From a virus: 25,505 nt of DNA. The stretch covers positions 1 to 25,505 of IMG/VR virus record IMGVR_UViG_3300021961_000575; one strand, written 5' to 3'. The translations under genes and the position numbers were made by a program. Each line of letters starts with the position of its first letter. Within the stretch, counting starts at the first letter, position 1. Shown piece by piece: positions 3,289 to 25,495 of this stretch. Below the pieces are notes generated by a model that saw only the letters and a list, made by a program, of their open reading frames with translations, did no database searches and was not told where the DNA came from.

Positions 3289-4644
3289 TTAATTATTTAG
3301 GAAAAAGCTATTAAACTGTCGTAACGTTTCTTTTTCAGAGTCAGTAACTTCACCATATGAAGGCTTAGTGGCTGGAGTGATTGTCTCCAATTCATCGTCA
3401 GAAATGATTTCAAAGGCACCAGTTGAGGTATCAATCTTAGCTCCATATGTTAAACCATCCATTCCGTATCTATTCTTCATAATATGCCACCTTCCGGTGC
3501 CGTTAACTTTATCTTCTCTTTTGCGACTTAAGGAAGCGCCAAAATCAATAATCATGATTTTGTCATAAGAGCCCGCTGCCTTATCTCCTTCAATTACATC
3601 GTCTTTTGCTCCAGCTCTATTGACTTGAGAAACAGACCAAATTGGGATATTAAGCTCGCGGGCCAATCCTTTTGTGCTAGTATAAATATCATCTATCTCG
3701 TCCTTACGTTCACGATTGTTTCTCTTTGAGCGAAGAAGATCAACATAGTCGATAATAATCAAGTCAGGTTTAAAATCAAGGTCAATACATTTCTTGATAT
3801 GAGCTTCAACTGTAGATATAGATGCCTTACCTGGTGCGTATTCTTTAATGATTAGATTACCTGGTAGTTTTTCTAGTACTTTTTCTACCTTAGCTTTGTT
3901 CGGAATGATGACGTTTACTGGAATCTGAGTAAAGTAGGCGTCATATCGTCTACCAACATAATCCTCACCTAATTCAAGAGTGTAATGGATTACATTAAAA
4001 CCCATTCTAACAGCATGACCACCTAGAGCAACTAGCGCCCAAGATTTACCACCTCCTGGATTACCAAATATAAGACCAAAATCTCCATTTCCGAGACCAC
4101 CTTGAAGTAGTTCGTTAAATTCATTCCAAGGAGTTGGAATTGTAATCCTATGTTCTTCACGATATCGTGTTTCCAAATCTTTATTGTACTCATGACCTAA
4201 ATTTTTATCTTGACCTGCTTTCATTGCTGATTCAATCATAAACTTGATTGAGTCATAATCTCCAGCTTGTAGTAAATCTACTGATTGTAGTAGTGCTTTT
4301 TTTAGCATTTGGTTTTTACAGAATGCAGAGAACTCTTCTTCAACATAAGCTAGGTCATCTGTTTCCTTATATGCTTCTCGAAGTTGTTCTTTAACTGCAA
4401 TCTGTAGAACCTCATTTTCTAATTTTTTTAGTTCTACTTTAAGTACCTCTAGAGACGGTGTTGTGTGGTACTTGTCATAGTATTTTAGGATTTCTTTAAT
4501 AATCCATTTATGTGCCTGATTGTCAAAGTATTCTTCACTAACAATATCATGGATATTAGTTAGGAAGTTTTTACTATTGAGTAGGGCAGCTAGAACCTTG
4601 ACTTGAAAGCCAGGTCCATATTGATTAATGTCTCTTAATGTCAT
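3289..4644 (-). CDS. Replicative DNA helicase, DnaB/T4 gp41-like
   Basis: Hexameric 5'-3' helicase that unwinds DNA at the phage fork. The N-terminal region (1 to about 150) is a helical DnaB-N-like domain. The C-terminal RecA-fold ATPase has Walker A GNPGGGKS (194-201), a catalytic Glu in TLELGED (222-228), Walker B LIIIDY (295-300), SQVNRAG (339-345) and the KNRYGMDG motif (390-397) typical of DnaB/gp41 helicases. At 451 residues it matches gp41 (475) and DnaB (471). It lies 4 bp after the 5' exonuclease gene and 12 bp before nrdB, so it is part of the replication operon. No primase (gp61-like) gene is visible in the window. The start ATG at 4644 lacks a Shine-Dalgarno sequence. Confidence 0.94.
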   Translation of the reverse strand: MTLRDINQYGPGFQVKVLAALLNSKNFLTNIHDIVSEEYFDNQAHKWIIKEILKYYDKYHTTPSLEVLKVELKKLENEVLQIAVKEQLREAYKETDDLAYVEEEFSAFCKNQMLKKALLQSVDLLQAGDYDSIKFMIESAMKAGQDKNLGHEYNKDLETRYREEHRITIPTPWNEFNELLQGGLGNGDFGLIFGNPGGGKSWALVALGGHAVRMGFNVIHYTLELGEDYVGRRYDAYFTQIPVNVIIPNKAKVEKVLEKLPGNLIIKEYAPGKASISTVEAHIKKCIDLDFKPDLIIIDYVDLLRSKRNNRERKDEIDDIYTSTKGLARELNIPIWSVSQVNRAGAKDDVIEGDKAAGSYDKIMIIDFGASLSRKREDKVNGTGRWHIMKNRYGMDGLTYGAKIDTSTGAFEIISDDELETITPATKPSYGEVTDSEKETLRQFNSFFLNN

Positions 4645-8112: not shown

Positions 8113-8571
8113 CTAAAGTTCAATAATCTCGTGGATTTTAGTTCTTAGCTGCTTTAGCTCGTTTTGTTGAGTTAGCAAAATGGTGTTTTTGTAGTGTTGC
8201 CAGTCAATCTGGAAACGTGTATCTACCACCCCACCATTTAAGCTTTTAATAAGCTCGTTCAGGGCGTTAATTGTATATAGAGTGTTTGATTCTTTTTTAC
8301 GATGAACCAAAATCGTGTTTTCTGGGATGCTAGCTATGTTAGCCATTTCAATATTATACGTTAAAACGTACTCATTGTTATTTTTAACCTCTAGTACAAA
8401 TATCTTATTGTACATCACAGTATAGCTTCTTTGGATAGAGTCTACCAAATCATTTACACCATCTAACGTAGTAAATGTACAAAATAACTTATTATTCAAA
8501 TCTGTGAAGTTTATGGGATTATCTGTCCCATAAATATCATACGGTAGGTCTAAAGTCGTAACTGTTTCCAT
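8113..8571 (-). CDS. Unknown 152-residue protein overlapping the polymerase gene
   Basis: I do not recognise a family. The protein has 152 residues and no membrane segment. The N-terminal half is beta-rich (KIFVLEVKNNNEYVLTYNIE). The C-terminal half looks helical (LYTINALNELIKSL, then a final helix TQQNELKQLRTKIHEIIEL). It starts inside the end of the polymerase gene with a 35-bp overlap (8537-8571) in another frame, so translation is probably coupled. That makes a polymerase partner or a regulator plausible, but nothing in the sequence shows it. The ATG at 8571 is the first in frame. No Shine-Dalgarno sequence precedes it. Confidence 0.75.
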   Translation of the reverse strand: METVTTLDLPYDIYGTDNPINFTDLNNKLFCTFTTLDGVNDLVDSIQRSYTVMYNKIFVLEVKNNNEYVLTYNIEMANIASIPENTILVHRKKESNTLYTINALNELIKSLNGGVVDTRFQIDWQHYKNTILLTQQNELKQLRTKIHEIIEL

Positions 8572-9808
8572 GCGTAACTTTTATTGTTAATTTATGTTTT
8601 TCAAACACTTGATGAATATCTTGCAACACTTGTTGTTCTTCTCTGTCCCAATCAAACAAAAATGAATCATATGTGTATAAAACAATCCTAGTGTTTTTGT
8701 TTTTTAATATTTTAAATATATCCCATAAGATACGTACATTGAATGAAGTTTCCAAGTTTTGGAGTACATAATTCAAAAGCTTTTGAGGATTCATGTTTTC
8801 CAGCTTATCCTTATAATACTCATATCCGGATATAGGACATTTGATAAAACCTTGATATTGGAAAGTATCCCACAAATCATCTACATAGGCTTGAACCTTT
8901 CTAAAAAATTCAAGATTTTTATATTGAGACAAAATTCCTCCATATAGTTGTTGTAGAGTTAGCTTTTTGGCTTCCTGTCTATCAAGTCTATAAACTTCTG
9001 CAAAGTGACTATAAATATCCTTATCACCAAAATCATAGCCAACCAACCTAGATAAAAGAGTAGGATGGTAAGCCGTAATATCAAACTCAACAAGTTTAGA
9101 ATTACGCGCTCTAAACGCTTTCCTACACCCATTTTCTTTATTGAGTGCGGCATAATTTATACCATTAAAATTATTGGAAGGTCGTGTAGTTAACGTTTTT
9201 ATATTGTATTGAGTATACACTACACAACCATTGATGTCCTTATCAAAGTAATCGTTATATAACGTGTTATCCACGAATAAACCGGCACGTTCGATACCAT
9301 TGAATACCCAACTAGCCTTGTCATTGTAAAATTTATTGACTGGTTTATCTATCAAATGTTCTAATTCCTCAAATAGGGCCTCACAATACTCATAGTGTTT
9401 AACAATGGGTACTATCGTGTTTATATCTTGTTTTTGAGGGTATTTGTGGTAGAGGAATTCATGGGCGGGTGTAAATTGTATATACGTAGGGGAGGTTAAT
9501 GTGATGTCAATAAGCTGCTTAAGAGGAAAATAGTGTAGGAACTCTTTTTTGTCCCTACAATAAATTTTTTCTAAGTTCTTAATTAACAAAAATACCTTAT
9601 CCTCAAATAGCTTTTCCTCTACCTCTGTATGGTAGATTGGAAATAGGTAACCTTTATGGTCTTGTATAGGCCTAATGTAGATACAACAGATTGAATTTTC
9701 TGCCGGATGAATAAAAGGTGAGTATGGAATAATTTCAACAAAGGCTTCTTTAACATTTCTGTTTTTGAATGTTTCGAATTGACCTTTATTTTCTATTAAC
9801 CAGAACAC
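8537..9808 (-). CDS. Family A DNA polymerase, compact and divergent
   Basis: Palm domain of a PolI-type polymerase, probably the phage replicative enzyme. Motif A is EFDITAYHP (catalytic D243). Motif B has exact family spacing: R277, K281, L285, Y289, G290 (RQEAKKLTLQQLYGG). Motif C is TYDSFLF (catalytic D381), where HDE is usual. A TTRPSN segment (207-212) matches the usual TGR-S thumb motif. L285 aligns with E. coli PolI Phe762. The first 150 residues (beta-rich, FVEIIPYSPF to YIQF) may be a remnant of a 3'-5' exonuclease fold, but no DxE motif is visible, so proofreading is probably absent. Length is 423 residues, far below PolI (928) and T7 gp5 (704). The start is GTG at 9808, 11 bp after the previous stop, with AAAGG upstream. 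Confidence 0.85.
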   Translation of the reverse strand: MFWLIENKGQFETFKNRNVKEAFVEIIPYSPFIHPAENSICCIYIRPIQDHKGYLFPIYHTEVEEKLFEDKVFLLIKNLEKIYCRDKKEFLHYFPLKQLIDITLTSPTYIQFTPAHEFLYHKYPQKQDINTIVPIVKHYEYCEALFEELEHLIDKPVNKFYNDKASWVFNGIERAGLFVDNTLYNDYFDKDINGCVVYTQYNIKTLTTRPSNNFNGINYAALNKENGCRKAFRARNSKLVEFDITAYHPTLLSRLVGYDFGDKDIYSHFAEVYRLDRQEAKKLTLQQLYGGILSQYKNLEFFRKVQAYVDDLWDTFQYQGFIKCPISGYEYYKDKLENMNPQKLLNYVLQNLETSFNVRILWDIFKILKNKNTRIVLYTYDSFLFDWDREEQQVLQDIHQVFEKHKLTIKVTHGNSYDFRPTV

Positions 9809-10445: not shown

Positions 10446-13400
10446 TTAAGTTCTAAGAAATAAATCTCGTTCAGTATATCTACGTCTTAATAATCCTTTA
10501 ATTGTTTTACCTTGAGCTTTAGAATATTCTAGCAATTTATCAGCTGCTCTATTATAATCACTATTCACTAATAAATTTCTTAAAGAACTACTTCTAGACC
10601 AACCTGTTCCTACATTATAACTAAATGAAACTAAAGCATCATATTCATTTTGATTTAATTTAACAGTACTAGGTAAATTAGCTTTTAAGCTGTCTTCAAA
10701 TTTAACAACAGATGTTCTTAAAAGTTCTGTAGCTACTTTGTCAGATGAAAGAACATCTCCTTTTTGAACTGCTTTTCCATTTTTATAGAAAGTATTACCA
10801 TAACCAATAGTCCATTTATCTCCAGGAATAGGTTGATATGCTTTAAGTCTAAGACCTTCAAAACTTTTAATTAAAGTTAAAGCATTATTACTAAAAGTTA
10901 AATCTTTAATAGGTTTACGAGTTGGATCCTGATCTTCAAATTTTAGTTTAGCTATTTTTATTCCAGTTGCTATTCTTTCTTCTACTTCTGAAGTGTCAGG
11001 TTCACTAGTTGATATAGGATCTTTAAGAGTTATATCTTTAGGAATACTAAGTGACTCAATTTCTGTAGTCCAACTGTCTTTACTAATAGTATGAGATATA
11101 CCCTTAATTAAGAATTGAAGTTTGTCTGGGTAATTTAAAGGTAAAAATTTACTGTCAATAGTAAATGTTTGATAAATTTTCATTCCTGATAAACCATCCA
11201 TTACTAAATTTAGGTTAATAGGAATAAAACCAACTCCACTAGGTGATGCTTTTTTCTCAGCTTCAGCTATAGTTTGAGACCAAAACTTTTGCCAGTTCTT
11301 ATTTAAAGTATTAATTTGGCTAAGTTCATCTTTACTTAAAGTTTTATCATCATACTTTTTAAGTAATGACACATAATTTAAAACATCATCTTTGTATCGA
11401 TCCCAAGCTGTTTTTTCTTCTTTATCTTGAGTTGGATCTTCTTTTACTTTAGCTGTTCTGTCTGTTAAACCTTCATTCCATGATTGCAAAGCTGTAGCGT
11501 TTTCAGTTACAACAGCATTTACTGCTTGGGCCCCAATTGCTAAAGTAGTAGATAATTTATTAGAAACTTCTGTTCTAATACCAAAATCCCTAATAAAACT
11601 ACCATTTAAACCTCTATCTGTAGGTGAAAAAGCATATACTTGGAATTCTGTAGGAGTATTATTTAGATTAAAATCTTCTATTATACCTGGGATAGGTTTA
11701 TCATCAATAAATTTAATAGTGTTTGTTTCTTCGTCTACTACTACATCAATACTATTTACATAACCTAATGATGAATTTATACCTTGACAAATTCCTTGTA
11801 GAAAATTAAATAAGGAAATATTACCTTCACTATCAACATTAGACTTTAAAGTTTCTACTAACCAAGATAAATTTAAGAATATATTCATTAATTTACCAGC
11901 GTTAGCATTTTTATCACTAGTAAATTCTACATCACTTGGTAATTCTAAAAGGTCAATAGTATCTGTACTATTTATAGTTTCTAAATCAGGAAATTTGATA
12001 TTACGAGTAATTACTTTAGTCCAGTCTGTAGCTACAGAATATTTATTTTTATAGATAAGATTATCAGCTACACTTAAATCAAATTTTAATGCTTTGGTTT
12101 TTTTATCACCATTAACATTATTAAAAATAAGATTGTCTTGAATCCACCTTAATAAGGTTCTAAATTTTATATAATAATTACCTTCACTTTGACCTTCCCA
12201 ATTAACTCTACAAGCGTAAGTTGTATTACCATCTTTTAAAACTGAAACAACTGAAGTTGTTTGTCCTTTTCGTTTAGTAATAGTTATAGCTTTAGTTGAA
12301 TCTAATTCTAGTTGTATACCTGTATATAAGAAATAAGTTAAGGAATTAAGACCAGCGTTGGTTGCTACAACACCACTTGGACTTGTAATATTAGATTCAG
12401 TTATTGGGGTGGCTGAAACTATATTGGCGTTTCTAGTTATAAAAGCTAGTATAGCTTCATCATCATAATTAGAGGAACCTCCTTGGGATGAATATAAAGT
12501 TTTATTAGTAGAAGGATCAACTACAAACTTAGAAGATTGAGCTGTTCCTGCTCCTGCTGCTCCTGAGGATTGGGAAATTCTAGTGACATTAACCTTAGCT
12601 TGAGTTCCATTAACATTAATATTACCATCATTTTGAATATTTCTTAGTTGGTCTTTAACTCCATCAAGTACTTCTTGGAAGCTATCTGAGGTTAGAATAG
12701 TGCCTTTACCTGTAATATCATTTAAAGTTAATGATTCAATAATATCACCTACACTAACTAAATTTATACTAATATCATAAGTACCATCAGGATTAAATGA
12801 CCAATTAAAGTTAGTTATTTTACCATACAAAGCATCATAGTTTCCACTTAAATTTTCTCTACTTTGTCTTATAGTTGGTAAAATATTTCCACTGTCTAAA
12901 GAACCATTTAAAAATCCATTAGCTAAAGTTCTTCTTATTTGAGGAACTACTTCACCATTATTATTTAAATAATTAGCTCCCCAACCCCATTCTAATAAAA
13001 CAGTATATCCTAGTCTTAAATAAAGAGCATCAATTATATTTAGTTGTGTTTTATTATATGCTTTAACTTGAATAGTGGCTGTTTTTAGAGAACCTCTGTT
13101 TTTATAACTAACTGTGGCTGAGGTTATACCAGGCATTGGAACTTGACCAAATTCAAGTCCTCCTAAACCATAAGCAGAGCTACCTAAAATTGATTGGTCA
13201 TTATTTAAACCAGCTTTTAAGTTAAAAACATCTTGACCATCACTATTGAGTCCTTGAAATTCAGAAGTACCAGCAAATAATACAAAAGTTTTAGCTAAAT
13301 TTTCTCCAGCTAAACTTTCAGGTAAACCTAATTTTTTAAGTTTATCTGCTGTTATATCAACACTAGATATTAATTTAGCAAAGGGTTGTTTATTATAAAG

Positions 13401-13520
13401 ATATTGTTGTCTATCTTCTATAAAACCTTGACTTGGATTAGCCTCAGACCCATAAAATCTTTGTCTTACATTGACTTGGGTTGCTACATAATCATCAAAA
13501 CTTTCACCTATTAAATTCAT
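10446..13520 (-). CDS. Baseplate hub protein with C-terminal GH24 lysozyme domain
   Basis: A large (1024-residue) hub protein that probably combines structural hub functions with local peptidoglycan digestion during injection, as gp5 with gp27 does in T4. The first 870 residues are beta-rich with N/S/T-rich loops and a conserved-looking region LEFGQVPMPGITSATVSY to VLLEWGWG. Residues 876-1024 (about 10449-10895) are a T4-lysozyme-like GH24 domain: SFEGLRLKAY with catalytic E888, then GDKWTIGYGNT, NEYDALVSFSYNVGTG and LLRRRYTERDLFL. The Asp usually nine residues after the Glu is replaced; D901 four residues later may substitute. No beta-helix spike repeats follow the lysozyme. The ATG overlaps the previous stop (ATGA). 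The LysM-like gene upstream and tape measure further up fit a baseplate cluster. Confidence 0.85.
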   Translation of the reverse strand: MNLIGESFDDYVATQVNVRQRFYGSEANPSQGFIEDRQQYLYNKQPFAKLISSVDITADKLKKLGLPESLAGENLAKTFVLFAGTSEFQGLNSDGQDVFNLKAGLNNDQSILGSSAYGLGGLEFGQVPMPGITSATVSYKNRGSLKTATIQVKAYNKTQLNIIDALYLRLGYTVLLEWGWGANYLNNNGEVVPQIRRTLANGFLNGSLDSGNILPTIRQSRENLSGNYDALYGKITNFNWSFNPDGTYDISINLVSVGDIIESLTLNDITGKGTILTSDSFQEVLDGVKDQLRNIQNDGNINVNGTQAKVNVTRISQSSGAAGAGTAQSSKFVVDPSTNKTLYSSQGGSSNYDDEAILAFITRNANIVSATPITESNITSPSGVVATNAGLNSLTYFLYTGIQLELDSTKAITITKRKGQTTSVVSVLKDGNTTYACRVNWEGQSEGNYYIKFRTLLRWIQDNLIFNNVNGDKKTKALKFDLSVADNLIYKNKYSVATDWTKVITRNIKFPDLETINSTDTIDLLELPSDVEFTSDKNANAGKLMNIFLNLSWLVETLKSNVDSEGNISLFNFLQGICQGINSSLGYVNSIDVVVDEETNTIKFIDDKPIPGIIEDFNLNNTPTEFQVYAFSPTDRGLNGSFIRDFGIRTEVSNKLSTTLAIGAQAVNAVVTENATALQSWNEGLTDRTAKVKEDPTQDKEEKTAWDRYKDDVLNYVSLLKKYDDKTLSKDELSQINTLNKNWQKFWSQTIAEAEKKASPSGVGFIPINLNLVMDGLSGMKIYQTFTIDSKFLPLNYPDKLQFLIKGISHTISKDSWTTEIESLSIPKDITLKDPISTSEPDTSEVEERIATGIKIAKLKFEDQDPTRKPIKDLTFSNNALTLIKSFEGLRLKAYQPIPGDKWTIGYGNTFYKNGKAVQKGDVLSSDKVATELLRTSVVKFEDSLKANLPSTVKLNQNEYDALVSFSYNVGTGWSRSSSLRNLLVNSDYNRAADKLLEYSKAQGKTIKGLLRRRYTERDLFLRT

Positions 13521-16415: not shown

Positions 16416-18734
16416 TTATTGGAGCTTAGCACCAGCTGTCATTCTACCTATCTCAAGGCGGTTCATATCTACAACCATCTTTATTTGTGATATAGCTGCT
16501 GGGATTTGGTTTAGTCCTTCTCTAAGGCTCTTTAATTCAGCTAACATTGGTGATAAGTCAACTTGTGCTTGTGGTGTTTGAGTTGCTCTCATGTCACCAC
16601 GTTCCGCAACATTTAATGGCTTGATTCTAGCTCCTTCAGGCAATTGGACAATTTCAGGACCAACCTCACCTACTCTAACTGCTCCTCCTTCTTCTACTTC
16701 ACCACCAAATTGAGCACCTGGAGGTTTAGCTTGAGAGGCTATTAATCCAACCATAGTAGCTGTACCAGCTGCCGCAGCTGCTATACCTACAGGACCTAAT
16801 TTAGCACTTCCTGAGAATATATCAGCTATAGCTTTAGTAATTGATCTATATGCTGCTATTGCTCCTTTAGCAGCCATAGCAGCTAAAAATCCTACAGCTA
16901 CACTTAATAATGGGACTAATGCTACAGTTGAAGTTAAGATTGAACCCATAAATTCAGCTATCATTCCTAATGGACCTTCAGCTATATCTGTAAATAAGTC
17001 TTTCATTTTATTGATAGACTCATTAAACTTTTCTTGTAAGGTAATATTTTCTATTCTTTTAGCTACTTCTTCACCCTCAGCTGCTGCTATTTCATCATAA
17101 GTTTTACCTCTATATTGTTCTAAAAGAAGCATTTCACTTAATTCGCCAACACTCATACCTAATGATTGAGCAAATGCTTGTTGTTGAATAACATTCATTT
17201 GTTGGAAGTCACTAAAGTCACCCATTTGACTATTAATTTCATCCATCAATCCAGTTAGATTATTGGTAAGAGCAAAATAACGTGCTCTTTCTAAATTAAG
17301 TTCTTTACCAGTTAATAATTCAGCTTCTAATTCAGCTGAAATAGAATCTTCAAAGTTAAGTAAAGAACTAGCTATTTGATTTACTCCTTCTAAAGAAGTA
17401 CCTAATGCCTTAGCTTTAGCTACAGCTTCAGTTAATGCTGAAGTAGAACCTTTAAATTGAGCTAAAGTATAAGCTGAGGATTTACCAACCTCGGACATTA
17501 CTCCTTTAATATCTAATTGAACTCCATATTGAGAACTTACAGATTGAGCTATTTCATATGAATCTAGCTTTTGTTTAGCAAAATCTTCACCAGTAGCTTC
17601 AGCAAAGAATTGTAATTTAGCTGCTTCCTCACCTGAAATTTTAAGTAATTTAGTTAATTCAGTTTGAGTGATTAAATTTTCAGCATTGATTTTACCTTGT
17701 AAACCTAATAAAGTAGTTAATTCACCTTGAGCTTTAACTAAATCTCTAGTGTTAATTAAAACATTCCCTGAAGATGTAGCAGCATCTGAAAATTCTGCTC
17801 TTAAATTTCTAGCTTCACTAGTTGATAAAGCTAAATTCTTTTGCAGTTGAACAGTATCTTGGTTTACTGCTACTATAGCATCCTTTAATTGTTTAAGGAC
17901 AAATAATAATATAACAAAAGGATCACTAAGAGCTCTAAATGATTTTTGTAAAGTTTTAGAAGCTAACATTCCTAAAGCCTCAGTTCTGTCTACAACTCTA
18001 CCAGTTTCCTCATATATTTTCTTAATTTCTGTTTCAACTTCAGAAAATGCTTCAGAGGCTGATGCTCCTATACCTGGGATTGAACCCAAAAGTTTAGTTA
18101 GGCCTCCAGCTACACCTAATGCACCTTGGATGTCTTGTTCAACTTTTAATTCTTTTTTACGCTGCTCAGTTTGTTTTTCTAATTCAGCAGTATTTAAAAT
18201 ATTAAGAGCATATTGTTGTTGGAGGATAGATAAACTTTTAGCTTCTTGTTCGGCTTGGGCTGTTACTTGAGATAATCTACCTTTTAAACCAGCTAATCTT
18301 CTTTGATTAATTTCTTCTCCTTGAACTGCTTTTTCTAATTCAGCTTCAATAGATTTTTCTAAATTTTGTTGCTGCTGAACTATTTTAACAAAATCCTCAG
18401 CTTCTTTTTTACGTTTATCTCCTAATGAAGTAGCTAGAGAAGCTTGTACTGTCTGGCTTTTTTGAATTAGATCATTATTTTTAGCTATTTGCTTACTAAT
18501 AACATCAATACCATTTAAACCAGTTTTTTGGTTTAAAATAGCTTGATAAACCTGCTTATTAGTACCTAGTAATGTAGATTCAAATTGAGTACGTTTACTC
18601 TGGATTCCTAGAGTTTCTTTTAAAGAGTCAATAATAGAAGAAGAGATGTCTAAACTTTCTCTTCTTAATTGAGCAGTTTTTTCTAACTCACTATTGAGTT
18701 CCCTCTGCCTTAAAATTTCCTCTTGTGTAGCCAT
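16416..18734 (-). CDS. Tape measure protein
   Basis: Sets tail length and is expelled during DNA injection. The 772 residues show the typical layout: a long N-terminal coiled coil (about 8-200, rich in Gln/Glu/Lys/Leu), a helical middle with a short hydrophobic patch (272-281), hydrophobic Ala/Gly/Val-rich segments (about 590-627 and 648-668), and the C-terminal motif GGEVEEGGAVRVGEVGPEIV...LPEGARI (676-704) seen in many tape measure proteins. A short helical tail follows. At roughly 1.5 angstrom per residue the tail would be about 115 nm, somewhat longer than T4. It follows the gp26-like and overlapping ORF pair, the usual place for tail assembly chaperones. The motif ATATTTATTAC lies 15 bp before its ATG. 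Confidence 0.9.
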   Translation of the reverse strand: MATQEEILRQRELNSELEKTAQLRRESLDISSSIIDSLKETLGIQSKRTQFESTLLGTNKQVYQAILNQKTGLNGIDVISKQIAKNNDLIQKSQTVQASLATSLGDKRKKEAEDFVKIVQQQQNLEKSIEAELEKAVQGEEINQRRLAGLKGRLSQVTAQAEQEAKSLSILQQQYALNILNTAELEKQTEQRKKELKVEQDIQGALGVAGGLTKLLGSIPGIGASASEAFSEVETEIKKIYEETGRVVDRTEALGMLASKTLQKSFRALSDPFVILLFVLKQLKDAIVAVNQDTVQLQKNLALSTSEARNLRAEFSDAATSSGNVLINTRDLVKAQGELTTLLGLQGKINAENLITQTELTKLLKISGEEAAKLQFFAEATGEDFAKQKLDSYEIAQSVSSQYGVQLDIKGVMSEVGKSSAYTLAQFKGSTSALTEAVAKAKALGTSLEGVNQIASSLLNFEDSISAELEAELLTGKELNLERARYFALTNNLTGLMDEINSQMGDFSDFQQMNVIQQQAFAQSLGMSVGELSEMLLLEQYRGKTYDEIAAAEGEEVAKRIENITLQEKFNESINKMKDLFTDIAEGPLGMIAEFMGSILTSTVALVPLLSVAVGFLAAMAAKGAIAAYRSITKAIADIFSGSAKLGPVGIAAAAAGTATMVGLIASQAKPPGAQFGGEVEEGGAVRVGEVGPEIVQLPEGARIKPLNVAERGDMRATQTPQAQVDLSPMLAELKSLREGLNQIPAAISQIKMVVDMNRLEIGRMTAGAKLQ

Positions 18735-18764: not shown

Positions 18765-18794
18765 AGTCCCAAAGTTTGTTAATACTTTGGGACT
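18765..18794 (-). terminator. 11-bp hairpin between the gp26/partner genes and the tape measure gene
   Basis: A perfect 11-bp stem (AGTCCCAAAGT/ACTTTGGGACT) with an 8-base loop spans the stop codon of the 124-residue frame (18779-18781). On the coding strand it is followed by TTCC and then the promoter motif, not by a clear U-tract. It may be a weak terminator, an RNA-stability element or a processing site. Stem perfection in an AT-rich gap makes chance unlikely. Confidence 0.55.
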
Positions 18795-19153
18795 CTTTGA
18801 TCCTTACTATTATATTGTTTACTTACCTTAGCAAACTCAGGAGCATTTATAGTACCATCTTCATTTATGACATTGGTAGTGTTTCCTGATTTGGTTTGCT
18901 GTTTTTGAGCTTCTGCTTGTTTAGTGTAATGGTCTTGCAGTTTATTGAAAGTAAACTTTCTTAACCATACAGGCATATTATAGACTGTAGGATAATCATA
19001 ACCTCCATTACCATGGAAAATTATTTCATGTATTTCAGTAAATAAAGACGCTCTAAAATTAGAAACGTTCTGCAATGTCAGGCCAAAAAAAGTCAAGTCC
19101 AATTGGAATTGTGCGAAATCGACCGTCCTCCCCCTCGTAGGACATATCCACAT
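18779..19153 (-). CDS. Overlapping tail assembly protein, gp51-like or frameshift extension of the gp26-like gene
   Basis: A 124-codon open frame overlapping the gp26-like gene by 95 bp. The part beyond the overlap looks like a real protein: SNFRASLFTEIHEIIFHGNG, then YNMPVWLRKFTFNKLQDHYT and a charged Gln/Lys-rich tail. The first 23 residues (MWICPTRGRTVDFAQF...) merely read the gp26-like gene in another frame and look non-native. I therefore think the true product starts by frameshift at the run of seven T (19085-19091): a +1 or -2 shift joins residue 237 of the gp26-like protein to this frame, giving about 338-339 residues. Independent initiation at the ATG at 19153, or a sequencing error in the T run, remain possible. 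The position before the tape measure gene fits a G/GT-type tail chaperone pair. Confidence 0.6.
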   Translation of the reverse strand: MWICPTRGRTVDFAQFQLDLTFFGLTLQNVSNFRASLFTEIHEIIFHGNGGYDYPTVYNMPVWLRKFTFNKLQDHYTKQAEAQKQQTKSGNTTNVINEDGTINAPEFAKVSKQYNSKDQRVPKY

Positions 19154-19796
19154 CTGGCATTGTATTTTTATAATGGTCTCTTAGTGCTCTTGAATCTGAT
19201 GCTAGAAGGTAATTGTCTATAAAATTGACAATAGTACTCATATCACGATTACCTCCTACTGAAGTGATAATGAAACGGAATCGAGTGGTTAATTCACCTG
19301 CGTTAGGATTTACTTTTCTTAAACCTTCTAATTCTTTAGTGATCATTTTTTCATCCTTACCTGTTAAAAGCTTAAAGGTAATTTGAGTAGTAGTTTGAGG
19401 AAGTGTATAAGAAAATTCATTATTTCCCTCAGTTAGACCTGTAAAGTCATTATTGATGTTCTCTAGCTTAGATAAGTCAATGGTTTGTGTCTTACTTCCG
19501 TATGATACGGTGTAATTTGAACCGTAACCTAAGATACGAGCAGCCACTAATAGAGCATTCTTATCGCCTATTAACAAGTCTTCTAAGTTAAATTTAGGAC
19601 TGATGATAAGTGATTCTAGTAATTTATCTAAAACTATACCTTGCTGAATATAGTTAGCGTTAGCTAGGATATCTTCTTCCTTAGCTGTCATATATTTCAT
19701 TTCTACTTTACCTTCTTTAAGAGGATGTTCGGCTGGATAAAAGAAGCCTTTAGAAGGTAGTTCAACTGTTTCAGTTGGGAATTTAAATTCTGGCAT
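19059..19796 (-). CDS. Baseplate/tail assembly protein, T4 gp26-like
   Basis: A 245-residue protein of the T4 base plate (gp26) type. The N-terminus ELPSKGFFYPAEHPLKEGKV is followed by EMKYMTAKEEDIL (33-45), a conserved-looking signature of these proteins in T4-like phages. A helical region with ELEGLRKVNPNAGELTTRF follows, and the end is IPIGLDFFWPDIAERF. The position (after the tube, before the tape measure) and an overlapping downstream frame match the tail assembly chaperone locus of other tailed phages, so it may act as a chaperone of the tape measure rather than as a virion part. A GTATTTATAAA motif lies 24 bp before its ATG. An unusually GC-rich patch (about 19120-19137) lies in the overlap region. 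Confidence 0.75.
   Translation of the reverse strand: MPEFKFPTETVELPSKGFFYPAEHPLKEGKVEMKYMTAKEEDILANANYIQQGIVLDKLLESLIISPKFNLEDLLIGDKNALLVAARILGYGSNYTVSYGSKTQTIDLSKLENINNDFTGLTEGNNEFSYTLPQTTTQITFKLLTGKDEKMITKELEGLRKVNPNAGELTTRFRFIITSVGGNRDMSTIVNFIDNYLLASDSRALRDHYKNTMPDVDMSYEGEDGRFRTIPIGLDFFWPDIAERF
19085..19091 (-). other. Candidate frameshift site: run of seven T
   Basis: The coding strand reads GAC TTT TTT TGG in the gp26-like frame. Slipping +1 or -2 enters the long downstream frame that continues for 101 codons. A -1 slip ends at once (TTG GCC TGA). The site lies nine codons before the gp26-like stop. A purine-rich GAGGGGGAGG lies roughly 40 bases upstream, which is farther than usual for a stimulatory Shine-Dalgarno element. 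Confidence 0.45.
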
Positions 19797-19859: not shown

Positions 19860-20171
19860 TTAATATGATTTATTAAAACTTAAAGATTTAAGTTCTTTTT
19901 TGGTTTTCTCGTCAAGTTTATCTACTCTACTATCAATATGGCGATAGAGACTTTCTAATTCTCGTTGAGTGTTATTATTTAATAGATCTGTGTAATCAAT
20001 ACATCTATGTTCAAGAGCATTGTTGTCACGAATAATTGCTTCATCAATGCTTTGAAGAATATTGATTTGTTTTTGGAGATTTTTGATTTCCATATAATTC
20101 ATAAACGTAACCACAACCATTGCAATAGTAATGACAGCAGCTACACCTAAAATAAATGATGTTGTTTCCAT
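19860..20171 (-). CDS. Small membrane-anchored coiled-coil protein (103 residues)
   Basis: A 103-residue protein with one N-terminal hydrophobic helix (about 5-24, SFILGVAAVITIAMVVVTF) and then a charged heptad-rich region (about 27-95, EIKNLQKQINILQSIDEAI onward) that should form a coiled coil. No signal-peptidase site is obvious, so it is probably membrane-anchored with the coil on one side. I cannot assign a function; possibilities are a spanin-like or holin-associated protein, an inner-membrane factor for injection, or an assembly scaffold. It is preceded by a strong terminator (20236-20257) and lacks a good copy of the promoter motif, so it may have a separate promoter in the 111-bp gap. 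Confidence 0.72.
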   Translation of the reverse strand: METTSFILGVAAVITIAMVVVTFMNYMEIKNLQKQINILQSIDEAIIRDNNALEHRCIDYTDLLNNNTQRELESLYRHIDSRVDKLDEKTKKELKSLSFNKSY

Positions 20172-20282: not shown

Positions 20283-20771
20283 TTAGAAGTTTAGTACACA
20301 GTAATCCATACCCATAGTAACAGTGAGGTTTACAGCACCCGCATCTGTATCCCAGTTATATTCACCAAAGTTAGCAGACTTAATGAATGCGCCTTTAATT
20401 ACCCATTCTGAAACAATATCACCAACAGGACCTAATACTTGGATAGTTGGATCCTTCTTATAGAAGTCGGAGTAACCATCTCTACCTGTTACTGATTCGT
20501 GGTGTAAACGAAGCCATTCAATTACTGCTTGAGCACCTGAAGGTGTGATTGGATCGTATAGTGTCATAGTCAAATCATTCCAAACAGTTCTACCTTTTAC
20601 TTTGCGGTAGATGTTGATATGGTTTAATCTGATTTCACCTTGATCGAAGCCTACCGCTGATAAACCTTTAATCATGAAGGCTGGAATGCCTGTGATTGAG
20701 AAGATAAATCTATTCTGAACTTTAGGTTCGAATGGGGTGAAGAAAATATCGTTTATACCTAATACTGCCAT
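20283..20771 (-). CDS. Tail tube protein, T4 gp19-like
   Basis: Major subunit of the inner tail tube through which DNA passes. At 162 residues it is nearly the length of T4 gp19 (163). Typical features are the N-terminal FEPKVQNRFIFSITGIPAFM, KGLSAVGFDQGEI, the strand-rich HINIYRKVKGRTVWNDLTMTL with a DPITPSGAQAVIEW helix, and the C-terminal SEWVIKGAFIKSANFGEYNW followed by LTVTMGMDYCVL. It lies after the sheath gene with a 46-bp gap, has its own ATATTTATAAT motif and its own terminator. Independent, strong transcription fits a protein needed in more than a hundred copies per virion. Assignment is secure. Confidence 0.93.
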   Translation of the reverse strand: MAVLGINDIFFTPFEPKVQNRFIFSITGIPAFMIKGLSAVGFDQGEIRLNHINIYRKVKGRTVWNDLTMTLYDPITPSGAQAVIEWLRLHHESVTGRDGYSDFYKKDPTIQVLGPVGDIVSEWVIKGAFIKSANFGEYNWDTDAGAVNLTVTMGMDYCVLNF

Positions 20772-22663: not shown

Positions 22664-23857
22664 CTAATAAATATTAAGTACTTTTTCTAGAGATTTTATT
22701 ACCATCTCTGGGGTAATTGATTTAGTACATTCAAAATGTCTTGGAGTATCTTTATGATCTGGGCACCATTCCCAATCTCCTGGGTTTAGCCACTCACGAT
22801 TAAAACATCCTGAACAAAGTCCTGCCGGAGTATAAATACGCTCACAATCTTCAAATTCACTGTATGGTTCTGAGAATCCTGAGATGAGTATTGTTTTTTG
22901 TCCTAATGCCCAACTTAACCAACTTAAACCACTACCTACACCAATAAAAGCATTAGCATGTACTATGTCATTCATTCGGTCCTCAAGTGGTAAATTGCCA
23001 GTTTTATTAACTACATTCTTTAAAGTACCACCTAATTTAGAATCATGCCATTCATCATTTAAAGGTTCACTTGTAATCATAACTGCCTTATAGCCGTTAT
23101 CATTTAACCAGTTAATGACACGCTGCCAACCCCCTGGGTAATTCCAGTACTTAGCATGAGCTGAAGCATGAGGGGCAATTACAACATATTTTTGTTTAAT
23201 TGACTTTGGTTTTTTCTTTAAGTATACTCTTGGTTTAATTTCAGTATACTCTAAACCTAAAATGTCTGATGATGTTTGAGCTAAAGGTAAGTTTTTAAAC
23301 TCACGAACATTTTTATCTAAGTTAATTGAATGGTCTTCATTATAGAACCACCCAACATTATACATGGCATACAAGTCATGGACTGTAGTACCAGGTTTTA
23401 CAAATTCAATGTCTTTGTAAGTTTTAGCAAACCATTCATTATGGAATGTAGATACAATAAGTTCACATTTATGTTTTTTTCTAAACTCTTCTATATGGGG
23501 GAACCATGCTAAAGTATCTCCTATGGCTGAAGAATCCATATGGATGTAAACTCGTTTACCTTCAGCGTTATATTTGTGTTCAAATACTAAGTCATCATCT
23601 TCATATACTTGAACTAACCAGTTTGTAAAGTATTTACGATTGGTACGAGTCCACATATTATTTGAGATACTACTTTCATGTACTACCTCATTTTTGTCTT
23701 GGTCTATAAATTTTACAATATAGTCTCCTTTTTCAGAACCTAAAACCTCTAAAAAGGCACCATCAAGAAAATGACATATAAAAGTATTTTTAGACTCCTT
23801 ATAAGGTAATCCTAAAATCTTTACATTATTATAAATTTCCTTTAAGACTTCTTTCAT
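22664..23857 (-). CDS. Protein O-heptosyltransferase-like glycosyltransferase, TibC/Aah (BAHT) family
   Basis: Resembles bacterial autotransporter heptosyltransferases, GT-B enzymes that attach heptose to Ser/Thr of surface proteins. Characteristic parts: SSAIGDTLAWFPHIEEFR (109-126), a nucleotide-sugar domain beginning YVVIAPHASAHAKYWNYPGG, the signature FIGVGSGLSWLSWALGQ (304-320) and ISGFSEPYSEFE, then the four-cysteine iron site C348-x2-C351, C365, C377 (in CSGC, WCPDH and FECT). All four cysteines are present, so the metal site looks intact. The sugar donor and acceptor here are unknown; virion proteins such as the neighbouring sheath are one possibility. It overlaps the upstream GT4-like gene by 29 bp, so the two are translated together. 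Family assignment is strong; substrate is not. Confidence 0.87.
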   Translation of the reverse strand: MKEVLKEIYNNVKILGLPYKESKNTFICHFLDGAFLEVLGSEKGDYIVKFIDQDKNEVVHESSISNNMWTRTNRKYFTNWLVQVYEDDDLVFEHKYNAEGKRVYIHMDSSAIGDTLAWFPHIEEFRKKHKCELIVSTFHNEWFAKTYKDIEFVKPGTTVHDLYAMYNVGWFYNEDHSINLDKNVREFKNLPLAQTSSDILGLEYTEIKPRVYLKKKPKSIKQKYVVIAPHASAHAKYWNYPGGWQRVINWLNDNGYKAVMITSEPLNDEWHDSKLGGTLKNVVNKTGNLPLEDRMNDIVHANAFIGVGSGLSWLSWALGQKTILISGFSEPYSEFEDCERIYTPAGLCSGCFNREWLNPGDWEWCPDHKDTPRHFECTKSITPEMVIKSLEKVLNIY

Positions 23858-24788
23858 ATAACTCTACTAATTCTTTTGTTCTGTTAAACCAATCTAGTTC
23901 TTTAGCTGTATTGGAACATCTTTCTCTGTAACTATCCCAATTATCCATTATATCATCTAATCCTCTAGTCATTTCAAATATGTCACGAGGTGCTCTCCAA
24001 CCACCATGAAATACAGTTTCATATTCCCAATCTGCTATAACAGGCAAACCTGCTGCTACAGCTTCAATCATTGTTAGATTTGGGTGACCTGCTTCCAACA
24101 TTGTAGGATGAACAAATATATCGTGTTGATGATACAAATTTAATAATTCACTATTTGGTAGATCAAATATAATGTTAAGTTTTGGATAAGCCAAAGTCCA
24201 TAAGTGATTATTAAAGAAATGTTTATTGTTTGAAGGGCCAGCTACAGTTATAGGTAAATTACGAGATTGAGCTAAAGCTATACCATATGCAAATCCTTTT
24301 CTATCAAAACCTGGATTACCTGCTAATCCATTGTTAGCGACCATTAATAGTTTAGGTTCTGTAGGTTTAGATTTTTCTATTGGGTAAAATTCCTGAGTGT
24401 TAATTCCATGAGCAAAATATTGAACTTTTGGATGATCAAAATAGTCTACTAAGTATCTTGCAGGAACTAAAGACATTGTAGAACCTTCTATAGCTTTCAT
24501 GTTCTCTCTAAAAACATGACTATCCTTACCATAATGATAGGCATGATGGTCATGTAATTGAAAGACATAAGGAACATTTTGTTCCTGAAGCATTAAGGCT
24601 AAATTGCCAACATGACAATGAACAATGTCAAAGTCACCAGGGTTAATTTCAGTTGCAAATTTGATTTCTGACTCATGTCCGTGTGCTAAAAAATTTAAAT
24701 GTAATTCCCATACAATCTTTTCGATTGCACCCCAATCTTTAGGTGGAACATCTATTCCACATGCAGGATGTACTTGACAAATTCTCAT
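23829..24788 (-). CDS. GT4-family glycosyltransferase (GT-B fold)
   Basis: A 319-residue retaining-type glycosyltransferase. The N-terminal domain has MRICQVHPACGIDVPPKDWG and FDIVHCHVGN with QLHDHH. The C-terminal donor domain has LLMVANNGLAGNPGFDRKGF (147-166), HDIFVHPTMLEAGHPNLTMIEAVAAGLPVIAD-type signature split around E232 and E242, two glutamates that usually contact the nucleotide sugar. Sequence shows no membrane segment or signal peptide. It starts in a 4-bp ATGA overlap with the GT25-like gene and ends overlapping the BAHT-like gene by 29 bp. The three enzymes therefore look like one pathway, perhaps building a short glycan on a virion protein or modifying host surface sugars. Acceptor unknown. 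Confidence 0.85.
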   Translation of the reverse strand: MRICQVHPACGIDVPPKDWGAIEKIVWELHLNFLAHGHESEIKFATEINPGDFDIVHCHVGNLALMLQEQNVPYVFQLHDHHAYHYGKDSHVFRENMKAIEGSTMSLVPARYLVDYFDHPKVQYFAHGINTQEFYPIEKSKPTEPKLLMVANNGLAGNPGFDRKGFAYGIALAQSRNLPITVAGPSNNKHFFNNHLWTLAYPKLNIIFDLPNSELLNLYHQHDIFVHPTMLEAGHPNLTMIEAVAAGLPVIADWEYETVFHGGWRAPRDIFEMTRGLDDIMDNWDSYRERCSNTAKELDWFNRTKELVELYERSLKGNL

Positions 24789-25495
24789 TCAGCAGCGTAT
24801 ATTAAAGGACTATTTTCATCTGTACCTTTAAATTCTTGTTCAATGATGCTGAATCCAGGTAAGTGTTTAGTATAGATTTTTTCTGCTGTTCCTACTCTTA
24901 AACGAGCAACATTACAAACCCATAGATCAAAAGCATCCCAAGGTGTTGAATTTGCTAAATCTACAATTTTGTTTATTTTATCTTGGTTTATAAGATATGA
25001 TTGAGCTGGGATAAATGGAGTTACATCTGTATAAATGTCCTCAATTTTAGGTCCATTTAAATTACGATTTTGATATGGGTTACCAAATCCGATAATATCC
25101 ATATCTGTTTGTTTAGCTAATCTACTAAAACGTTTTAGTGACTCATACAATTCATTATAGTCTGAATCTATAATAACATCACCTTCAAATATTAAGATAT
25201 AATCATAATTTGGATTGTCTTGAGCTAATAAAGCATTTTTATGGGCTAAATAACAACCATAATGACCTGGGGCTAGTTTATAATAGCCTGGTTTGTCTTG
25301 TACCTCAGTTGGTCGAGCACAATTTTCAGTTGGTGGTGTTTCAGTCCAGATTGCATTTACTCTTTGTTCATAAACAATACCTGTTCTATTACAGAAATCT
25401 TTAATGTTTTCAATTGATCTGATTTCTTTAGGATTAGTTTCAGGTTCAGTTACTAAATGTATTAGTTTGATTTTAGGAACAAACCATTCAAACAA
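24785..25495 (-). CDS. GT25-like glycosyltransferase
   Basis: A 236-residue enzyme resembling family 25 glycosyltransferases (LPS/collagen-type galactosyltransferases, GT-A-like fold). Visible: an N-terminal IKLIHLVTEPETNPKEI strand/turn, GHYGCYLAHKNALL (77-90; family 25 usually has GCYLSH), and the metal/nucleotide motif YILIFEGDVIID (99-110, E104-G105-D106). The C-terminal part has PAQSYLINQDKINKIVD and PGFSIIEQEF. The start at 25495 is the only ATG before the frame nears the window edge, and only 10 bp remain upstream, so the promoter is not visible. It is first of a three-gene overlapping glycosyltransferase set ahead of the sheath gene. Confidence 0.8.
   Translation of the reverse strand: MFEWFVPKIKLIHLVTEPETNPKEIRSIENIKDFCNRTGIVYEQRVNAIWTETPPTENCARPTEVQDKPGYYKLAPGHYGCYLAHKNALLAQDNPNYDYILIFEGDVIIDSDYNELYESLKRFSRLAKQTDMDIIGFGNPYQNRNLNGPKIEDIYTDVTPFIPAQSYLINQDKINKIVDLANSTPWDAFDLWVCNVARLRVGTAEKIYTKHLPGFSIIEQEFKGTDENSPLIYAAE

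Follow-up and report, generated by a model that had tools for sequence, protein, structure and literature searches.

Tail assembly chaperones produced with a −1 ribosomal frameshift are known from phage lambda (gpG and gpGT) and from other phages (Xu et al. 2004; reviewed in PMC5009743). Across phages, chaperone frameshifts of −1, −2 and +1 have been described, including a −2 shift in phage Mu and a likely +1 shift in the haloarchaeal virus HSTV-2, and T4 itself has been described as lacking the frameshift (PMC5009743). For T4-like phages, PMC12846349, which cites Vladimirov et al. 2022, reports −1 poly-T signals in chaperone genes, and PMC10885494 states that some members carry a short gene together with a separate, longer fused gene. 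The gp26/gp51 chaperones of T4 and cyanophages (Vladimirov, Gautam and Davidson 2022, cited via these two papers) form a family homologous to the proteins analysed here. In this study, we examined a 25.5-kb IMG/VR virus record (hereafter the window; all of its genes are given in window coordinates) and its relatives, and we consider it very likely that the tail assembly chaperone gene of this T4-like contractile-tailed phage yields two proteins by programmed +1 ribosomal frameshifting.

The arrangement of the locus is given in Table 1. A pair of overlapping frames lies between the genes for the tail tube and the tape measure protein, which is the gene order of G and GT. As described in the original prediction, the two frames overlap by 95 bp, and a run of seven T is located at the junction, where frame 0 reads GAC TTT TTT TGG CCT GAC; relative to this reading, the second frame is shifted by +1 (equivalently, −2). 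Our recalculation of the fusion lengths gave the values stated there: a +1 slip leads to 338 residues and a −2 slip to 339, whereas a −1 slip reaches a stop after two codons. The suggestion that the second frame is native only after its first 23 codons also held, as homology to relatives starts at about residue 24 (GLTLQ) and conservation does not extend to the ATG at 19153.

Table 1. Features of the putatively recoded chaperone locus in the window, its neighbours, and annotated T fragments in relatives
Feature	Position	Strand	Basis or remark
ORF1, putative G-type tail assembly chaperone N-domain (gp26-like, phrog_150), zero-frame product, 245 aa	19059..19796	-	phrog_150 match, AlphaFold model
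Second ATG-to-stop frame, 124 aa	18779..19153	-	open reading frame
Run of seven T (A on the + strand)	19085..19091	-	
Proposed slippery site TTTTTTTGGC, read TTT TTT TGG C	19082..19091	-	YTT-T in frame here and in 256/261 loci
Codon 2 (TTT), proposed P site	19086..19088	-	
TGG, proposed A site	19083..19085	-	
Seventh T, base proposed to be skipped	19085	-	
CCT codon after TGG, dual-coding	19080..19082	-	CCT in 131/132 representatives
T domain in the +1 frame (GLTLQ...VPKY), 101 codons + stop	18779..19084	-	homologous in all +1 loci
Whole putative recoded gene: G product 245 aa, predicted G–T fusion 338 aa (+1)	18779..19796	-	frames and conserved site
Tail tube protein, upstream neighbour	20283..20771	-	phrog_4542 tail tube, E 4e-21
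Tape measure protein, downstream neighbour	16416..18734	-	phrog_167 tail length tape measure, E 8e-8
Annotated T fragments (L001; L002; L169)	3839-3949; 3737-3973; 3321-3440		public annotations of immuto; Mel-JY01; SP-15

Relatives were collected by tblastn and by four scans of viral contigs; the scans gave about 260 loci, and the count of the site covered 261. The tblastn matches included Flavobacterium phages immuto, Microcystis phage Mel-JY01, an uncultured 484-kb phage, and more distant Firmicute and jumbo phages. A site of the form YTT-T-nn-CC, in frame near the end of ORF1 and with the final CC nearly always part of CCT, was present in 256 of the 261 loci, a count that overstates independence because the loci share common ancestry. 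Codon 1 of these 256 sites was TTT in 238, TTC in 15 and CTT in three; codon 2 was always YTT (TTT in 233, CTT in 23); and codon 3 was TGG in 248, TAC in six and TTC in two. The minimal site is thus YTT_TGG, and the general rule is YTT followed by T, or TTT followed by C in the outlying loci L003 and L004. Leu at codon 2 was encoded by CTT in all 18 representatives that have it, as compared with 17% of Leu codons in the gene body. When 21 diverse loci were aligned over 160 nt, conservation was highest in the columns of the T run and of CCT; CCT encodes Pro in frame 0, and the +1 frame reads through it as GGC CTG (Gly-Leu). Together, the recurrence of the site in nearly every locus, a +1 frame that stays open much longer than the −1 frame (see below) and the peak of conservation at the junction put the frame pair far beyond chance, confirming that the two overlapping frames are real. 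Conservation of the junction in T4-type relatives, which the original prediction had named as a check, is thus borne out.

Downstream of the site, a conserved domain (hereafter T) continues in the +1/−2 frame, with the consensus FFGLTPxYRxxLFxQIHxIVFHGKGGYDxxTVYNMPIWLRxFT. Past the ORF1 stop, the +1 frame remains open for a median of 86 codons, as against 10 for the −1 frame. Substitutions in the T frame past that stop fall at third positions in 61% of cases and at second positions in 15%, closely resembling those in ORF1 (59% and 14%), a pattern indicating that the T frame is under purifying selection at the coding level. Such constraint speaks against a decaying gene; in one locus (L034), T is intact except for an internal stop. 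A sequencing or assembly error, which a homopolymer at the junction might invite, is of negligible probability, and for the group an assembly error is excluded, as the same junction is found in 256 loci from many samples as well as in the isolate genomes of immuto and Mel-JY01. The relatives likewise do not carry one uninterrupted frame, the outcome that would have contradicted the original prediction.

We also considered that T might be an ordinary overlapping gene translated from its own ATG, which is at 19153 in the window and has upstream counterparts in some relatives. However, this ATG is absent from relatives that are 87–90% identical to the window (L008 and L009), the residues preceding FFGLT are not conserved in the T frame, and the last upstream in-frame stop of that frame lies only 9–15 bases before the site in many loci. 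No ATG, GTG or TTG exists between this stop and the site in 97 of the 256 loci, and initiation therefore cannot explain the translation of T; a separate gene is extremely unlikely. Separately encoded T does occur in two loci, L185 and L190, exactly those in which the site is degraded (TTC TTG TAT and TTC CTT TGG CCA, respectively) and T lies in another frame. There, T forms a separate ORF of its own, which starts at an ATG located shortly behind the stop of ORF1 and includes about 25 new residues. These loci are sisters (support 100/99) nested inside the +1 clade, so that loss of the site and gain of a start go together. Relatives with separate genes, which had been named as evidence against a fusion, are thus limited to this pair.

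The T frame can be entered by a +1 or a −2 slip, and the original prediction had allowed both. A run of seven T by itself permits either direction, as UUU can re-pair one base forward or two bases back, and a −2 shift as in Mu would give a fusion longer by one Phe. In favour of −2, nearly all loci have TTT as codon 1, above the 81% TTT predicted from codon usage, and at TTTCTTT sites a Leu tRNA could pair on UUC through G-U. The two directions are distinguished by the divergent sites. TTC TTT TGG in L175–L184 and L186–L189 (14 loci, two representatives) and TTC TTT CGT in Streptococcus phage SagM-GXN1 (L004) would force a middle-position mismatch (UCU) upon a −2 slip, and TTT CTA TTC in L003 fits +1 only; at all of these sites, a Phe tRNA would re-pair after a +1 slip (UUU on UUU or UUC). 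Re-pairing two bases back, as expected of a Mu-type shift, thus does not hold throughout the group. Because these sites re-pair only on a +1 slip, the direction is very probably +1, the half of the original proposal that we favour, and a programmed −2 shift appears improbable. Another way to reach the same frame is slippage of RNA polymerase on the T run, by which mRNAs would lose one U or gain two and then be read normally. Seven-T runs are short but potentially slippery, and the bounding of the run by a G or C in most representatives (see below) would fit such an event. Nevertheless, the architecture is the same at TTTCTTTGG (10 representatives), TTTCTTTAC (three) and TTCTTTTGG (two), which contain runs of only 3–4 T; since the TTTCTTT and TTCTTTT sites lack a long run, transcription slippage cannot be the general mechanism and is very improbable as an account of the group. 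It is likewise excluded at the TTC TTT CGT and TTT CTA sites.

According to the +1 ribosomal model, most ribosomes would finish ORF1 at its stop codon and release the short G-type chaperone. In a minority of ribosomes, a Phe (or Leu) tRNA would be on YUU in the P site with UGG waiting in the A site; this tRNA would slip one base forward onto UUU, after which GGC CUG A... would be read to give the G–T fusion. The slip codon would be codon 1 in L003, codons 1 and 2 are indistinguishable in the loci with seven T, and in Listeria phage LIS04 (TTT TTT AGT) a +1 slip fits codon 1 better than codon 2. The predicted junction peptide of the window type is TIPIGLDFFGLTLQNVSNFR for +1 and TIPIGLDFFFGLTLQNVSNFR for −2; for immuto, it would be VSFLGLTPEYR (+1 at CTT), VSFFGLTPEYR (+1 at TTT) or VSFLFGLTPEYR (−2). 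The analogy to gpG/gpGT of lambda suggests that the G part may coat the tape measure protein and that the T part may recruit tail tube subunits.

At the bacterial prfB +1 site, CUU_UGA, a stop codon occupies the A site and a Shine–Dalgarno sequence lies three bases upstream. The site described here resembles that of prfB in that a P-site YUU would re-pair on UUU after a one-base forward slip and in that the A-site codon starts with UG and is followed by C. Unlike in prfB, the A-site codon is a sense codon (UGG in 248 of the 256 loci) and no Shine–Dalgarno sequence is found at the prfB spacing. Instead, GGAGG is enriched about 35-fold in the 45 bases upstream of the T run (15.5 per kb versus 0.44 per kb in the gene body), and Glu-Glu pairs in this stretch are encoded as GAG GAG in 49 of 54 cases, as compared with 5 of 200 elsewhere. 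In place of the close Shine–Dalgarno sequence, this GGAGG lies 26–30 bases upstream; relative to codon 2, it is mostly found 31–35 nt upstream, with its start mostly 31 or 34 bases before that codon, and that of the window (19127–19131) is further up, at 43 bases. Since it is encoded as Glu-Glu or Gly-Gly in different lineages, selection acts here on the nucleotides. Its distance is outside the Shine–Dalgarno spacings known to stimulate frameshifting. A hairpin between GGAGG and GGCCT was also considered and dropped, as the bases after GGAGG vary, and RNAalifold predicted zero conserved pairs around the site among 21 diverse loci.

The base immediately 5′ of codon 1 is also constrained: 125 of 132 representatives have C or G there (the last base of codon 19092–19094 in the window), as compared with 19% of third positions in the gene body. 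Asn before the first Phe is AAC in 44 of 45 cases (body, 28%), and Ser is AGC in 31 of 40 (body, 3%). This preference is not explained only by avoidance of a longer T run, because A is shunned as well as T and these genomes prefer A or T at such positions. These features raise the possibility, which we put forward tentatively, of a new +1 signal design in which YUU_UGG is combined with a G or C that directly precedes the first Phe codon and with a GGAGG conserved 31–35 nt upstream; it would have evolved from or alongside the −1 signal at the same codons and would operate without a stop codon, a conserved RNA structure or a close Shine–Dalgarno sequence.

In the tree, the +1 clade forms one branch (99/93) of 51 rows that includes L003, L175 and both site-less loci, and the jumbo and classical T4-like lineages fall outside it; long branches make the deep placement uncertain. 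S-PM2, Melnitz, Vibrio PG216, Stenotrophomonas Ps15, RAS14, XacN1, Atu_ph07 and PA5oct have a T-like domain in the −1 frame, and their ORF1 terminates within or close to the same Phe-Phe codons (TTT TTC or TTT TTT). A profile of six −1 T parts matched the T domain of the +1 clade (hhalign 94.7%, E 6e-8). Hence, these lineages share with the +1 clade both a homologous T part and the junction codons and differ in the direction of the shift. In our set, the loci of cyanophage-type and jumbo lineages with the same Phe-Phe codons and T in the −1 frame are L005, L171, L172, L173, L174, L275, L278 and L279; T is often annotated there as a separate short gene. The gp26-family genes of Bacillus phage SP-15, Listeria LIS04 and Streptococcus SagM-GXN1, which are distant and outside the main clade, have an open +1 T-like frame after EFF, with A-site codons CAC, AGT and CGT, respectively; T is annotated as separate or missed in these phages.

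These comparisons set the locus apart from the described systems. Whereas the lambda-type shift is a −1 slip on an X XXY YYZ heptamer, with the T part in the −1 frame, the proposed slip here is +1 on YTT_TGG in proteins of the gp26 family, and T lies in the +1 frame. In T4, genes 26 and 51 are separate and divergently placed, whereas here a single gene would be recoded. Mu and HSTV-2, likened to this locus by their published description, also shift into the +1/−2 frame in a myovirus tail chaperone gene, but HSTV-2 is an archaeal virus and, unlike this clade, is not T4-like. The original prediction had considered a fusion in a T4-type phage notable in itself; this no longer applies to the −1 versions, which have been described (PMC12846349) and were also found here. 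In our literature searches, no +1 chaperone frameshift had been reported for T4-like phages, and what may be new here is the very probable +1 form of a known kind of frameshift; Vladimirov et al. 2022 is represented in this comparison by the papers citing it, and priority may lie there.

T4 has long been listed as an exception to the chaperone frameshift, and hundreds of its relatives appear to keep one, in the forward direction. The forward form, the backward form at the same two Phe codons in other lineages, and the abandoned form in one pair constitute a rare natural series, in which one can ask how recoding signals come to switch direction and to disappear. The clade also offers a large set of candidate sense-codon +1 sites in phages. 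Annotation can be corrected as well, since such genomes now either list T as a truncated hypothetical protein or lack an entry for it.

The assignment of ORF1 to the gp26 family of T4-like phages is based on profile matches: ORF1 matched phrog_150 ("baseplate hub"), as did 46 of 46 diverse relatives, and it weakly matched PF12322 (T4_baseplate). The Melnitz G protein led to T4 gp26 by tblastn, and direct profile comparison of the G domain with T4 gp26 or gp51 gave no convincing match. An AlphaFold model of the G domain had a pLDDT of 93.3. Its two best matches in the PDB were YqbN (Z 6.0) and the HK97 tail assembly chaperone (Z 4.5), weak values that may be incidental as Z is under 8, and a Foldseek search of the PDB returned nothing below E 0.6. 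YqbN, listed in the PDB only as a structural-genomics target, is a prophage protein that we take to be a chaperone homologue. These weak fold matches of the model agree with the gene order, and the chaperone role of G and T that we infer would follow by analogy. The T model consists of helices with a low-confidence tail. Pfam and PHROGs searches with the T domain of the window gave no reliable match, and some T-domain members weakly matched phrog_634 (baseplate hub assembly catalyst).

In the public annotations of immuto, Mel-JY01 and SP-15, part of T is entered as a short hypothetical gene whose start codon is there by chance, which hides the fusion. Between the tail tube and chaperone genes of the window, a small ORF (19860–20171, − strand) with an N-terminal hydrophobic stretch weakly matched Rz-like spanins (phrog_4349, E 3e-6); it is absent at that place in immuto. 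A 423-aa ORF with a GTG start (8537–9808, − strand) had no Pfam match at 0.01 and, by eye, contains motifs resembling the palm of family A polymerases (DITAYHP, YGG and YTYDSFLFDW). A 1024-aa protein (10446–13520, − strand) carries a phage lysozyme domain at its C terminus (E 1e-33) and is probably a gp5-like hub with lysozyme at its end. Finally, three glycosyltransferase genes in a row (Glyco_transf_9, group 1 and Glyco_transf_25; 22664–25495, − strand) adjoin the tail genes.
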